Below, piece after piece: positions 26,205 through 30,891 of a stretch of 64,000 bases of DNA (its first letter is position 1; each line of letters starts with the position of its first letter). The notes below the pieces were generated by a model. That model was not told where the DNA came from. It did no database searches and saw only the letters and a program-made list of their open reading frames with translations. The position numbers and the translations under genes are program-made. The DNA comes from Verrucomicrobiia bacterium (GTDB lineage Bacteria; Verrucomicrobiota; Verrucomicrobiia; Limisphaerales; JAEYXS01): positions 1 to 64,000 of the forward strand of contig DASWYF010000028.1 in the NCBI GenBank assembly GCA_036405135.1, written 5' to 3'.

Positions 26205-26329
26205 CCAGCTATTAAACCGTCGGTAAGTCGGCTGCTGCAAAGAAGAGAGGGCGAGAGTGATAAGGGTTGCGACGAACCGCAGTTTTCCTTGTTTCCCGGC
26301 TGGGCATTTCTCCATAACATGTGCCGCTC

Positions 26330-27610
26330 ATGAATATCATTGAGGAACTGCAGTGGCGCGGCTTGATCGCCGATCAGACGGATGCGGAAGGCCTGGCGAA
26401 ACGCCTGGCTGAAAAGCCCATCACGCTCTATGCCGGTTTCGATCCCACGGCGGACAGCCTCCATGTCGGTCACCTGGTGCCGTTGATCGCCTTGCGCCGG
26501 TTCCAGAATGACGGACATTTCCCGATCGCTATCGCCGGTGGGGCCACGGGCAGCATCGGTGATCCGAGCGGTAAATCCGCCGAGCGTTCCTTGCTCACGA
26601 AGGAGATGATCCAGGCGAATGTGGATGCGGTGCGTCCGCAGTTGGGTCGCTTGCTGGATTTCGAGACGACGAAGAATCCGGCGAAGCTGTTGGACAATGC
26701 GGATTGGACGGCGCAGTTGAGCTTCCTCGATTTCCTCCGGGACATCGGCAAGTTTTTTACGGTGAACCAGATGGTGCAGAAGGAGAGTGTTCGTGCCCGC
26801 ATGGAAGACCGTGAGGTGGGCATCAGTTACACGGAGTTCAGCTACCAGTTGTTGCAGGCGTTTGATTTTTATCACCTGAACCAGAAGTTCGATTGTGAAT
26901 TGCAGATCGGTGGCAGCGATCAGTGGGGCAATATCACGGCGGGCATCGATCTCTTGCGCAAGAAGGGCAGCAAGTATGGTTACGGCGTAACGCTGCCGCT
27001 CATCACGAAGGCGGACGGCACGAAGTTCGGCAAGACGGAGGGCGGCGCGGTGTGGCTCGATCCGAAGAAGACGAGCCCGTACCAGTTCTTCCAATTCTGG
27101 ATGAAGACGGATGACCGCGATGTGATCCGTTACCTGAAATTCTTCACGTTCTTGCCGCAGGACGTGATCGCGGATCTGGAAGCGAAGCACACGGCGAATC
27201 CGGGTGCGCGTGAGGCGCACAAGGCATTGGCGAAGGCGTGTACCGATCTGATCCATGGCGAGAACGCGACGCAGGAAGCAATCCGCGCGAGTGATATTTT
27301 GTTCGGCGGCAGTCTGGCGGGTTTGGCGGAATCCACGTTTAACGAGATCGTGGGTGAAGTGCCGACGAAGGAATTGCCTGCTGGGCAGTTCGCTGGTGCG
27401 GGTTCGACTTTGCTTGATGTGCTCGTCGCCTCCGGCCTCGCGACATCCAAGGGGCAAGCGCGCAAGGATGTGGAAGGCGGCGGTATCAATGTGAACAACG
27501 AGCGTGAGACAAATATCGCGCGCTTGCTCGTGGAGAATGATTTGTTATTCGGGAAGCATATCCTTTTGCGCAAGGGCAAGCGGAACTATGTGGTGATCAC
27601 GGCGAAGTGA
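26330..27610 (+). CDS. tyrS: Tyrosyl-tRNA synthetase
   Basis: Class I synthetase that charges tRNA-Tyr; 426 residues from the ATG at 26330 (a GTG at 26321 is an upstream alternative). The HIGH motif is LHVGHL and the KMSKS loop KFGKTEGG. The tyrosine-binding part has YAGFDPTADSLH, SYTEFSYQLLQAFDF and GGSDQWGNIT. A C-terminal S4 RNA-binding domain follows (LLDVLVASGLATSKGQARK and VNNERETNI). The organisation is that of the standard bacterial TyrRS. The next feature downstream is a palindromic element at 27623, and no terminator is obvious. Confidence 0.98.
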   Translation: MNIIEELQWRGLIADQTDAEGLAKRLAEKPITLYAGFDPTADSLHVGHLVPLIALRRFQNDGHFPIAIAGGATGSIGDPSGKSAERSLLTKEMIQANVDAVRPQLGRLLDFETTKNPAKLLDNADWTAQLSFLDFLRDIGKFFTVNQMVQKESVRARMEDREVGISYTEFSYQLLQAFDFYHLNQKFDCELQIGGSDQWGNITAGIDLLRKKGSKYGYGVTLPLITKADGTKFGKTEGGAVWLDPKKTSPYQFFQFWMKTDDRDVIRYLKFFTFLPQDVIADLEAKHTANPGAREAHKALAKACTDLIHGENATQEAIRASDILFGGSLAGLAESTFNEIVGEVPTKELPAGQFAGAGSTLLDVLVASGLATSKGQARKDVEGGGINVNNERETNIARLLVENDLLFGKHILLRKGKRNYVVITAK

Positions 27611-27622
27611 GTTTGTGGCGTT

Positions 27623-27649
27623 GGAGCGCGACCTTTAGGTCGCTTCAAC
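27623..27649 (-). repeat. 27-bp palindromic element, copy A
   Basis: Read on the minus strand this is GTTGAAGCGACCTAAAGGTC followed by GCGCTCC. The stem GCGACC/GGTCGC flanks a TAAA loop. It has the same outer bases as copies at 27750 and 30023, but a different stem that still pairs. Confidence 0.7.
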
Positions 27650-27749
27650 GCGAATATTATCACGACGGGTGAAATATTTGAGGGCAGACAAAAAGAATCG
27701 GTGCTCATTCTGAACTCTGAACCATTTTTCACACGCTTGGCTGGTGGAT

Positions 27750-27776
27750 GTTGAAGCGGCTTAAAAGCCGCGCTCC
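27750..27776 (+). repeat. 27-bp palindromic element, copy B
   Basis: GTTGAAGCGGCTTAAAAGCC followed by GCGCTCC. The stem GCGGCTT/AAGCCGC is preserved with changed bases relative to copy A. The preceding bases TGGAT also match copy C. Confidence 0.75.
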
Positions 27777-27866
27777 TAGCGCGTTGGATTGGCGGATGCA
27801 TGAGTTGCATGCGAACCTTGATTTGCGTTCAATGTCATTGTGGTTTTTAACGTCAGATTACCTGCT

Positions 27867-29966
27867 ATGAAGACGCTGCGTGTTTTTCTGGTTCTGATCG
27901 TGGGGGCGGTTTGTGCTCAGGCGGCGGAGTTGCCGGGCGACAAGCTGCTGGCGGAATATTTCCGCAAGGAGACGGCGAGGGTTTCGGAGGACACGTTTAA
28001 GGGGATCAAGACGTTGGAGGATTGGAAACGCGAACGTGCAGTGGCCAAGAAACAAGTGGAGGAGATGCTTGGCCTTTCGCCCATGCCAGAAAAAACCGAT
28101 CTCAAGGCGAACATCACGGGGCGCATAGACCATGAGCAATTCTATGTAGAAAATCTCCATTATCAGTCCATGCCCGGTCTCTTCGTGACGGCCAATCTGT
28201 ATGTGCCGAAGAATCTCACGAAGAAAGTTCCGGCCATCCTCTATGTCTGCGGTCACGGGCAGATGAAGACGAACGGGGTGAGTTTTGGGAACAAGACCGC
28301 GTATCAACATCACGGGGAGTGGTTCGCTCGGAACGGCTATGTGTGCCTGACGATTGATACGATCCAACTCGGAGAACTGGAAGGCATCCATCACGGCACG
28401 TATCGCGAGGGGATGTGGTGGTGGAATTCGCGGGGTTATACGCCAGCGGGTGTGGAGGCGTGGAACTCCATCCGCGGATTGGATTACTTGCAATCGCGTC
28501 CAGAGGTGGATGGCGAGAAGTTGGGCATCACGGGACGTTCTGGTGGTGGCGGTTACTCATGGTGGACGACGGTGCTGGATGAGCGCATCAAGGTCGCTGT
28601 GCCGGTCGCAGGCATCACGGATCTTCAGAACCATGTGGTGGATGGATGTGTGGAGGGGCATTGCGATTGCATGTTCATGGTGAATACGTATCGGTGGGAT
28701 TACGCAAAGGTGGCGGCATTAGTAGCCCCTCGGCCCTTGCTCATCGCAAATACGGATAAGGACCGCATCTTCCCGCTGGATGGTGTGGTGCGGTTGCACA
28801 AAGACGTGGCGGCGATCTACAAACTTTACGGTGAAACGAATAATCTCGGTCTGCTCATCACGGAGGGGCCGCACAAGGACACGCAGGATTTGCAGGTGCC
28901 CGCGTTTCGGTGGTTCAACCGGTTTCTGAAGGGTGAAGAGCCCCTGATCAGCATGGCGGCGGAGAAGTTGTTCAAGCCGCAGGAACTGAAAGTTTTTTCC
29001 TCACTGCCAACGGATGAGCGGACAACGAAGATCCAGGACACATTCGTGCCGATGGCGAAGCCGCCGGTCCCCGTTGACAAGGTGGGGTGGGAGAAGCAAA
29101 AGGGCGAATGGTTGTCCGCATTGAAGGAGAAGTCATTCCGCGGCTGGCCCACGGAGTGGAGTCCGAACAAACCCGGCCTGCGGAATCAAACGGGTGCGGA
29201 CACGATCAAGCTGATTCTTTGGCGATTCACCAGCCAGGAGGGTGTGGAGCTGCCGCTATATTGTATCGCCAAGGGCAATCACTTGGCGGCGCGCAAGGTG
29301 AAGCTCCAGGTGGTGGACGAGAAGGGTTGGGCCAATGTGCTGGCGGCATTCTCCGCGTATCAAGCGGGCAAGTTGGGGGATGAACTGGCGATCACGCCAG
29401 GTGTGAAACCGGACATGCTGGCGTGGATTAAGATGGTGGCGGATGTGGAGACAGATCTGACGGCAGTAGTGTTCCTGCCGCCACGCGGCATCGGCCCGAC
29501 GATGTGGGATCAAGACAAGCGGGAACAAACACAGATCCGCCGTCGCTTCATGATGTTGGGGCAGACGCTCGATGGAATGCGTGTGTGGGATATCAAGCGA
29601 GCGTTGGAAGTGTTGCAGACGGAATTCCCGGATCGAACGGTGCAGTTGGTGGGTGAGCGCAATCAGGGGATCAACGCACTGTATGCGTCGTTATTTGTGA
29701 ATGTGGTCAGTTCATTGGAGCTGATCGAGCCGCCGTCATCACATATGACAGGACCGGATTATCTGAATGTTTTGCGGTATCTGGATATCCCACAGGCGCT
29801 GGCGATGGTGGCGGAGAAGACGAAGGTGAAGGTCACGGATGGCAAACCGGAGGATTTCAAGTGGGCGACGGATGCGGCGAGCAAGCTGGGCTGGCCGCAG
29901 GGGCAGATAAAGTTCATCGATGCGAGAGCGGAGGCGAGGGAGAGGGCGAGGAAGGCGTTGGAATAG
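27867..29966 (+). CDS. Secreted alpha/beta hydrolase (acetyl xylan esterase-like)
   Basis: From the ATG at 27867 the product has 699 residues with a signal peptide (residues 1-20, VFLVLIVGAVCAQAA). Residues about 90-360 form an alpha/beta hydrolase domain of the acetyl xylan esterase / prolyl-oligopeptidase-like type: LYVPKNLTKKVPAILYVCGH, the nucleophile motif GRSGGGG (serine near residue 226), and the catalytic histidine probably in ITEGPHKDTQD. The second half (about 420-700) is not recognised. Related proteins are abundant in PVC bacteria and are thought to remove acyl groups from polysaccharides. The gene stands alone between palindromic elements. Confidence 0.82.
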   Translation: MKTLRVFLVLIVGAVCAQAAELPGDKLLAEYFRKETARVSEDTFKGIKTLEDWKRERAVAKKQVEEMLGLSPMPEKTDLKANITGRIDHEQFYVENLHYQSMPGLFVTANLYVPKNLTKKVPAILYVCGHGQMKTNGVSFGNKTAYQHHGEWFARNGYVCLTIDTIQLGELEGIHHGTYREGMWWWNSRGYTPAGVEAWNSIRGLDYLQSRPEVDGEKLGITGRSGGGGYSWWTTVLDERIKVAVPVAGITDLQNHVVDGCVEGHCDCMFMVNTYRWDYAKVAALVAPRPLLIANTDKDRIFPLDGVVRLHKDVAAIYKLYGETNNLGLLITEGPHKDTQDLQVPAFRWFNRFLKGEEPLISMAAEKLFKPQELKVFSSLPTDERTTKIQDTFVPMAKPPVPVDKVGWEKQKGEWLSALKEKSFRGWPTEWSPNKPGLRNQTGADTIKLILWRFTSQEGVELPLYCIAKGNHLAARKVKLQVVDEKGWANVLAAFSAYQAGKLGDELAITPGVKPDMLAWIKMVADVETDLTAVVFLPPRGIGPTMWDQDKREQTQIRRRFMMLGQTLDGMRVWDIKRALEVLQTEFPDRTVQLVGERNQGINALYASLFVNVVSSLELIEPPSSHMTGPDYLNVLRYLDIPQALAMVAEKTKVKVTDGKPEDFKWATDAASKLGWPQGQIKFIDARAEARERARKALE

Positions 29967-30022
29967 AGAGGCTGGGGGTTAGGGATGTGGCTGGCCAGTT
30001 TCACCACTGTTGGCGAGTGGAT

Positions 30023-30049
30023 GTTGAAGCGGCATGAATGCCGCGCTCC
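30023..30049 (+). repeat. 27-bp palindromic element, copy C
   Basis: GTTGAAGCGGCATGAATGCC followed by GCGCTCC. The stem GCGGCAT/ATGCCGC differs from copies A and B at paired positions. It lies 56 bases after the hydrolase gene and 102 bases before the sigma factor gene. Confidence 0.75.
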
Positions 30050-30150
30050 AAGGGTCAGTTCGGCCTCCTGACCTCGGCGGCTACGGAGTTGGTTTTCTTT
30101 TCCTGTAACAAACGCGGATGGATGCTTAATGTGAGGGGACAAGCATTAAC

Positions 30151-30891
30151 GTGTCCGATACGAGTCCATCTACCAAGGCGCCGTCGCTGTTCGTCACCAC
30201 CCGCTGGTCGGTGGTGCTGGCGGCGCAAGACAAGGCGTCGCCGGATTCCGCGGCGGCCTGGGAAACCCTGTGCCGCACGTATTGGTATCCGCTCTATGCG
30301 TATGTGCGGCATCAGGGGCACAGCCCACATGATGCGCAGGACTTGACGCAGGAGTTCATCGCGCGGTTTCTGGCGAAGGATTATCTCAAAGCGGCGGATC
30401 GCGAGAAGGGGCATTTCCGCACGTTTCTACGCGTAGCTCTTAAAAGATTTCTCCTGAACGAATGGGATCGCGTGAAGGCCCTCAAGCGCGGTGGTGGACA
30501 TGCGATTGTCTCTTTCGATACGGAAGTGGCGGAGGCGAAATATCAGACGGAGGCGCACGGCAAACCATCGGAGCAGGTGTATGAACGTGAGTGGGCCATG
30601 GCGCTGCTGCAAAAGACGATGGCGGATTTGCGCGGCGAGTATGAACGGGCGGGTAAGACGAATGAATATGAGCGTTTGAAGAATTGCCTGACGGCGGATC
30701 GCGGAACGATCAGTTACGGGCAGATCGCGACGGACTTGGGCATGAGCGAGGGGGCGGCGCGCGTGGCGGTGCATCGGTTGCGCAAGCGTTTTCGTGAAGT
30801 GTTCCGCGAGGCGGTGGCGGATACGGTTTCTGAAGCAACTGAAGTGGATGACGAAGTGCGTTATGTGGTGGGTTTGCTGAGCCAGGGATAA
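30151..30891 (+). CDS. ECF-type RNA polymerase sigma factor, kinase-associated
   Basis: A 246-residue sigma-70-family factor. The region 2 part reads AAWETLCRTYWYPLYAYVRH, then DAQDLTQEFIARFL; the region 4 part reads TISYGQIATDLGMSEGAARV and RLRKRFREVF. It starts with GTG at 30151 and has a longer linker between regions 2 and 4 than most ECF factors. Sigma factors of this type sit next to a Ser/Thr kinase gene in Verrucomicrobia (here the kinase starts 51 bases later), so the kinase probably controls the factor's activity. No anti-sigma factor gene is present. Confidence 0.88.
   Translation: MSDTSPSTKAPSLFVTTRWSVVLAAQDKASPDSAAAWETLCRTYWYPLYAYVRHQGHSPHDAQDLTQEFIARFLAKDYLKAADREKGHFRTFLRVALKRFLLNEWDRVKALKRGGGHAIVSFDTEVAEAKYQTEAHGKPSEQVYEREWAMALLQKTMADLRGEYERAGKTNEYERLKNCLTADRGTISYGQIATDLGMSEGAARVAVHRLRKRFREVFREAVADTVSEATEVDDEVRYVVGLLSQG

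Follow-up and report, generated by a model that had tools for sequence, protein, structure and literature searches.

Hairpin elements beside a tyrS-like gene of a Verrucomicrobiia bacterium as candidate REPs with a GGAG foot

Three 27-bp hairpin elements in the genome of a Verrucomicrobiia bacterium are very probably REPs, two of which (27623–27776) together make up a REPIN, and the family to which they belong was very probably spread by a RAYT/TnpA_REP protein, an HUH-Y1 single-strand nuclease. The elements lie in a 64,000-nucleotide stretch of contig DASWYF010000028.1, which was analysed as a whole and is referred to as the window. An initial annotation, made from the letters alone, had offered two readings of these elements: targets of a REP-type transposase, or a folded form kept by selection. 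The first is now supported by a shared design, by stem covariation and inverted pairing, by matching sites that are empty in relatives, by an intergenic location and by close linkage to a single RAYT clade, members of which are flanked by the element in five relatives. As to the second, the covariation is there, and we take the folding to be a requirement of the transposase reading. Two points go beyond that annotation: two of the three copies form one unit, and no close copy of the matching RAYT was found in the genome that carries the window (the own genome, G000).

Hairpin design and stem covariation

The elements and their neighbours are arranged as follows, with gene names taken from the initial annotation.

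26321–27610, + strand: tyrS-like gene, 429-aa open reading frame
27623–27776, no strand assigned: complete REPIN of 154 bp with inverted arms, GGAGC-hairpin-TTCAAC ... GTTGAA-hairpin-GCTCC
27623–27649, REP strand +: left arm of the REPIN, GGAGC GCGACC TTTA GGTCGC TTCAAC
27650–27749, no strand assigned: unit interior of 100 bp, which shares 64% identity with that of a unit in genome G002
27750–27776, REP strand −: right arm of the REPIN, GGAGC GCGGCT TTTA AGCCGC TTCAAC
27870–29966, + strand: hydrolase-like gene that separates the unit from the single arm; ATG at 27870, open reading frame listed from a GTG at 27840
30023–30049, REP strand −: single arm, GGAGC GCGGCA TTCA TGCCGC TTCAAC, with no upstream partner above chance
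30151–30891, + strand: sigma-factor-like gene downstream of the single arm

A spaced pattern of the element matched the window at these three places (27623–27649 on the minus strand, 27750–27776 and 30023–30049 on the plus strand) and had no match in 100 dinucleotide shuffles. The three copies, one of them in reversed orientation, are exact and lie where they had first been described. Their loops had been given differing sizes (TAAA, AA and GA), which did not hold: every copy has a 6-bp stem and a 4-nt TRAA loop, read as TTYA on the opposite strand, which we call the REP strand. On this strand, marked by GGAG, all three copies consist of GGAGC, the stem, the TTYA loop, the returning stem and TTCAAC, and single-stranded DNA folding gave the same hairpin shape for each of the three arms. 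The copies had also been said to flank the tyrS-like, hydrolase-like and sigma-factor-like genes. The third copy does lie between the hydrolase and the sigma factor. The first two lie together between tyrS and the hydrolase as one head-out pair, and 12 bp separate this 154-bp unit from the tyrS-like stop codon. A decayed left arm for the copy at 30023 was also considered. The best candidate scored 12, a value that 62 of 200 shuffles attained as well, and we therefore treat 30023–30049 as a singlet.

Compensating stem changes, which had been read from the three window copies, were confirmed on a larger set. Over 52 distinct copies from the own genome and its relatives, pairing holds in 97.4% of stem cells, compared with 81.6% in shuffles, and the stems contain 49 two-sided changes, a count reached by none of 500 shuffles. 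Sliding the partner abolished the signal. The covariation resides in the inner three pairs, the outer pairs being partly fixed by the search patterns; the number of pairs changed on both sides (three) was reached by 162 of 500 shuffles and is thus not unusual. Covariation and single-stranded folding together identify the element as a short palindrome able to fold, as a REP is.

Because these earlier patterns had fixed the loop, we also ran a search in which the feet and the outer stem were set while the six bases at the centre could vary. Of 366 matches, 150 were listed; these represent 13 genomes, G039 contributing 51 of them, G064 50 and the own genome none. Among these listed matches, 140 have a complementary innermost pair and 139 a TNAA loop (TTNA on the REP strand), the single bases being T in 145, A in 148 and A in 145.

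RAYT genes in relatives and in the own genome

A search for Y1_Tnp domains in nine copy-rich genomes gave 55 matches. Scanning 30 fetched loci for the element revealed one gene bracketed by it, a RAYT of genome G045. A divergent element lies 7 bp before its open reading frame and further elements lie on both sides. The gene scores exactly at the threshold of the NCBIfam profile REP_Tyr_transpos (NF047646; 80 bits against a cut-off of 80), exceeds the cut-off of PF01797 and aligns with E. coli TnpA_REP (4er8) over the HUH and tyrosine motifs with an E value of 1.7e-5. It thus combines the family profile with both motifs of a RAYT/TnpA_REP protein.

This RAYT served as a query against 78 genomes, and 43 RAYT-like segments obtained from 48 loci were compared; the comparison left out L175, L184–L187, L191–L193 and the loci of the Y1_Tnp search except L131. 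Five segments share at least 62% identity with the G045 RAYT, a threshold chosen after the data had been seen. They come from G045, G031, G053, G007 and G028, and each has elements with a 6-bp stem and a TNAA loop within about 310 bp, so that all five genomes contain a REPtron, a RAYT flanked by the same REP. The other 38 of the 43 segments have no such element within 700 bp. In a tree with labels assigned by hand, the five element-flanked RAYTs fall into one clade (support 100/99), within which no element was detected at one fragment (L169). Many of the next-closest RAYTs combine GGAGC or GGACC feet with stems and loops of other kinds, and GTAG feet occur at three that are more distant; the foot of L154 is doubtful. 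The flank scan gave 42 hits against 8 on reversed sequence, so some of its hits are due to chance. On the flanks of the RAYTs L155 (G017) and L158 (G070), GGAGC or GGACC hairpins form direct arrays, in which they recur at regular periods of close to 148 and 129 bp.

Copy number is higher where a close RAYT is present. The 14 relatives with a close RAYT (E ≤ 1e-60) contain a median of 31.5 copies, against 0 in the other 63 (Mann-Whitney P 3e-4, kinship ignored). A RAYT remnant in G045 (L187) has head-out elements on both sides. Direct association is confined to the five genomes, since no close RAYT was found in the own genome or those of the same genus, nor beside elements in the loci fetched from the high-copy genomes G039, G064 and G019. 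In G039 the distance between one element and a RAYT-like gene (L175) is about 1.3 kb. G007, G008 and G017 contain RAYTs of the wider clade, yet no match to the copy pattern. The search for a REP-associated transposase that had been proposed at the outset was thus successful in relatives and returned no close copy from the own genome.

In the own genome, as in G001 and G002, protein searches found no close RAYT of the G045 type, and the family there looks orphaned, without a REPtron. A missed gene is possible because the 5.8-Mb assembly is 97.77% complete and split into 52 contigs. Eight Y1_Tnp hits were found in it, none of them with an element inside the flanks that were fetched, 1.5 kb each. 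The cognate RAYT appears to have been lost from this genome, and its copies are probably relics. A similar situation has been described in Pseudomonas and Stenotrophomonas, where, according to the available portion of PMC3686654, REPs are abundant in strains without the cognate RAYT while related strains keep it.

The best match of the own genome to the G045 RAYT is a segment of 37% identity inside priA. As a cognate of the element it was rejected; one copy lies about 1.6 kb upstream of the segment, before the priA open reading frame, and was not counted as flanking. The encoded PriA (1097 aa, G000:C13:138344-141637; L189:1845-5138, +) contains an in-frame Y1_Tnp/RAYT domain at residues ~379–477, which scores 57.3 bits on the RAYT profile, below the cut-off of 80. 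The domain is framed by two 193-bp direct repeats, 88% alike, each with an inverted pair. To judge from this arrangement, it looks as though a RAYT together with its repeats was inserted in frame into the gene of the replication-restart helicase, which may be more unusual than the hairpin family. Y1_Tnp domains also occur inside other long open frames, at L191 (G053:C42), L193 (G036:C168) and L172 (G035:C6); two families of the order have such a domain flanked by DEAD/DEAD_2 and Helicase_C_2 domains, and another shares its open frame with a UDPGP domain. The own IS200/RAYT-like genes L016–L021 stand amid different hairpins of their own, some of them GTAG-footed, and a similar cluster follows tyrS in G001.

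Two of the own genes, the non-cognate RAYT at C20:86076 and the IS200-like gene at C20:262366, raise the question whether one of their products continues to move the units in trans. Such movement would be compatible with a REP family spread by its own RAYT, and it is conceivable because a hairpin 115 bp upstream of C20:86076 (GGAGT GCGGAGG CTTG CCTCCGC) has a GGAG foot; the gene itself scores above the RAYT cut-off (94.6 against 80 bits). This hairpin differs from the element in stem and loop, however, and two others by the same gene lack the GGAG foot. The hairpins flanking C20:262366 (L017) share the inner sequence GCGGCTTRAAAGCCGC with the element, but their feet differ (ATAG) and the gene scores as IS200, not above the RAYT cut-off. 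Many arms identical to one another persist in the own genome, as continued movement might have it, yet the element itself lies near neither gene. On balance we regard movement in trans as unlikely.

Copy number, empty sites and inverted units

A genome-wide search for the consensus, which the initial annotation had suggested, found further copies well above chance. The own genome contains 15 exact-foot copies (1 for the reversed pattern), and allowing up to three mismatches gave 42 matches against 0 for the reversed control, corresponding to about 40 copies; in at least two of the 42, C48:13512 and C29:3554, the stem does not pair, which gives them the look of chance matches. A covariance model recovered at least 41 copies at E up to 1 among the 150 of 2034 first-look candidates that were scored. 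These copies avoid long open frames: 5 of 37 fall into open frames of at least 200 aa, compared with 251 of 288 control offsets, and 11 of 37 into frames of at least 150 aa, compared with 265 of 288 control positions. Extragenic location and high copy number are as in REPs, the copy number of about 40 being below the hundreds of well-known hosts.

The family recurs in 40 of 78 genomes (the own, two of the same genus, the rest of the same order), with a maximum of 226 matches in G039 and 0–2 control matches per genome. In a sample of the phylum, 16 of 288 genomes match, the own included. More than two matches were found only in the own genome and in G255, G287 and G331, and nearly all matches of the latter three have a GCGGAC stem; the one or two matches in each of the other genomes resemble chance. 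Across a collection of genome contigs the exact pattern occurs in 69 stretches, all under Verrucomicrobial titles, including 2 of Pedosphaera sp. and 5 of Akkermansia muciniphila. The CAMAUZ01 records (L206, L209, L217, L220 and L235), titled Akkermansia muciniphila, carry the hairpin family; two of their contigs equal contigs of G039, a genome of the window's order, in length, and the title may therefore be wrong.

Comparison with the same-genus genomes uncovered three matching sites without the element. The gap between hydrolase and sigma factor measures 138 bp in the own genome, where it holds the single arm, and 16 bp in G002; in G001 this gap has a different sequence and the element is absent. 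Two units on own contig C25 are missing from the matching sites in G001 (222 against 89 bp, and 312 against 136 bp). For the window unit there is no clean matching site, as neither G001 nor G002 was found to have tyrS and the hydrolase side by side; no element follows tyrS in either genome, and G001 has another hairpin cluster there. The whole window unit, interior included, does recur at another G002 locus beside a different gene, with a 74% match over 162 bp. The 64% identity between the two interiors exceeds that of 100 shuffles of the interior (mean 49%, maximum 55%). From these alignments we infer that units were inserted in the own genome rather than deleted in its relatives; the absence in relatives could in part be due to deletion.

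These sites also bear on a rival idea, in which the hairpins would serve the host as RNA or DNA signals fixed at genes (transcription terminators, stabilising mRNA ends or protein binding sites) and their covariation would reflect host function rather than mobility. The strong covariation itself and the location between genes, often no more than tens of bases from where an open frame ends, would suit such signals, as would arms that are more alike than interiors, a likeness inflated by the selection of most units through an exact arm pattern. Signals fixed at genes are difficult to reconcile with three same-genus sites that lack the element and with the patchy distribution within the order. 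Moreover, an Rfam search of 27500–30200 gave no match at the elements (the single match elsewhere reached 21.3 bits against a gathering score of 49), and no T run follows the window hairpins. A host signal is therefore improbable as the origin of the family; some copies may have been put to host use later.

Inverted pairing is the rule wherever two copies are close. Close pairs are head-out in 9 of 9 cases in the own genome, in 8 of 8 found in 29 one-per-genome relative loci, and in 38 of 39 among the listed free-loop matches, these 38 being spaced by 72–84 bp. Two REPs inverted as a spreading unit are a REPIN, and the pair in the window is of this kind. As single-stranded DNA the 154-bp window unit folds into one hairpin (z −4.26), and 0 of 200 shuffles were as stable. 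Inspected by eye, the interiors of the nine own units look mutually unrelated; the bases preceding GGAG are not conserved among them. Interiors are shared in other genomes: 75 of 153 comparisons among 18 units of G064 and 15 of 55 among 11 units of G039 share at least 70% of the interior, as would be expected of copied units. The copied stretch can be longer than the unit, since parts of the flanks are also shared in these two genomes. A MITE of an ordinary DDE transposon, with hairpins in its terminal inverted repeats, would account for inverted ends, unit sizes of 72–154 bp and GGAG/CTCC termini, but is hardly credible given that no target duplication was seen by eye at the nine own units, that singlet arms are common in the own genome and that the gene linked to the element in relatives is an HUH-Y1 RAYT.

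Several patterns within units deserve mention. In most G064 units at L295–L314 the innermost pair is A-T in one arm and G-C in the other, a pattern that copying from one asymmetric master would give. Three apparent singles of the own genome (L074, L077 and L079) have a different hairpin arm at partner distance, GGAGCGCGGTCCCGC-ATGCGGGACCGCTTCAA or near it. Among the listed matches, the two arms share the innermost base in 6 of 38 units, against 16.9 expected. We do not claim from this that arms avoid identity, because 21 of the 38 units are from G064, many of them mutual copies, and 6 of 9 own pairs are alike. The notion that arms evolve more slowly than interiors is confounded by the picking of units through an exact arm pattern; the window and G002 units, one case free of this bias, are 85% and 100% identical in their arms and 64% in their interiors.

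Proposed recognition by the transposase and comparison with known REPs

As to how a RAYT may have spread these REPs, we infer the following route. When the DNA is single-stranded, the REP strand would fold into GGAGC-hairpin-TTCAAC. In this folded state the foot (GGAG) and the loop (TTNA) would be read by the RAYT, whose tyrosine would cut at a nearby C|T. The unit would then be copied or moved to another intergenic site without target duplication. A stem that must pair but needs no set sequence would give rise to compensating changes, and loop bases T, T and A that are read directly would be nearly invariant.

REPs are preceded by a tetranucleotide, most often GTAG, according to the text available from PMC8266576. 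Five RAYT subclasses have GT[AG]G REPs, and classes 2.6 and 3 lack this consensus, in the part of PMC6006769 at hand, which also gives 10–13 nt for the foot plus stem of short-stem REPs. The window family, in which foot, spacer and stem add up to 11 nt, has a conserved 5' tetranucleotide as well, but it is GGAG instead of the common GTAG or GT[AG]G. We call this a variant on account of its foot, since "most often GTAG" (PMC8266576) and classes 2.6 and 3 (PMC6006769), as far as these excerpts go, leave the kind open.

The group 3 REPtron Mb of Marinomonas, as portrayed in the accessible sections of PMC8266576, is similar in its short perfect stem, its 4-nt TTNA-type loop and its short gap between foot and stem. 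It has a GTAG foot, a 5-bp stem and a 2-nt gap, whereas the window family, known from sequence alone, has GGAG, 6 bp and 1 nt. In the same sections, REP_Mb with a TTNA loop behaves as the wild type does, and when the substrate was CT, selection on the foot fell mainly on its last two bases. The loop rule of the window family coincides with what Marinomonas TnpA_Mb tolerates. REPINs of Pseudomonas fluorescens (excerpts of PMC3116915) are likewise extragenic inverted REP doublets with a predicted hairpin and a link to specific RAYTs; the window family differs from them in foot and hairpin, in its occurrence in Verrucomicrobia and in an own genome where no cognate RAYT was found. In Pseudomonas and Xanthomonas, REPs of the type of GTAGGAGCGCACC... 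and TGTGGGAGCGGGC... (excerpts of PMC2817692) likewise place GGAGC immediately ahead of a short G+C-rich palindrome. In them GTA or GTG precedes GGAGC and yields the GTAG or GTGG tag, whereas the bases at this place are not conserved in the nine own units. The Pseudomonas and Xanthomonas REPs thus contain GGAGC, and the GGAG foot may be their foot, shortened or shifted. GTAG-tagged repeats that include the Verrucomicrobium O. terrae (excerpts of PMC3733652) are similar as high-copy tagged stem-loops; their tags are GTAG or CGTC. As the start of a word, GGAG is absent from the available portions of PMC3733652, PMC6006769, PMC2817692 and PMC12306157. No description of a GGAG-footed family was recognised in the literature searched, which is no proof of its absence from print.

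The REP reading explains a repeat family common to many genomes of one Verrucomicrobial order, and the family provides paired RAYT and hairpin variants with which to ask how RAYTs recognise hairpins and choose where to cut. GGAG retains the last two foot bases that have been proposed to guide CT cleavage, with the second base changed, and the TTNA loop conforms to the rule measured in one Marinomonas enzyme, so that both rules become testable in a distant lineage. It is conceivable, though less likely than not, that a Verrucomicrobial RAYT clade shifted its guide from GTAG to GGAG(C), with stem length and loop diversifying along with the transposase, and that the arms of the focal genus were kept without their transposase by an enzyme acting in trans or by host use. 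If this were true, the clade would be a natural series for reading the RAYT–REP recognition code.
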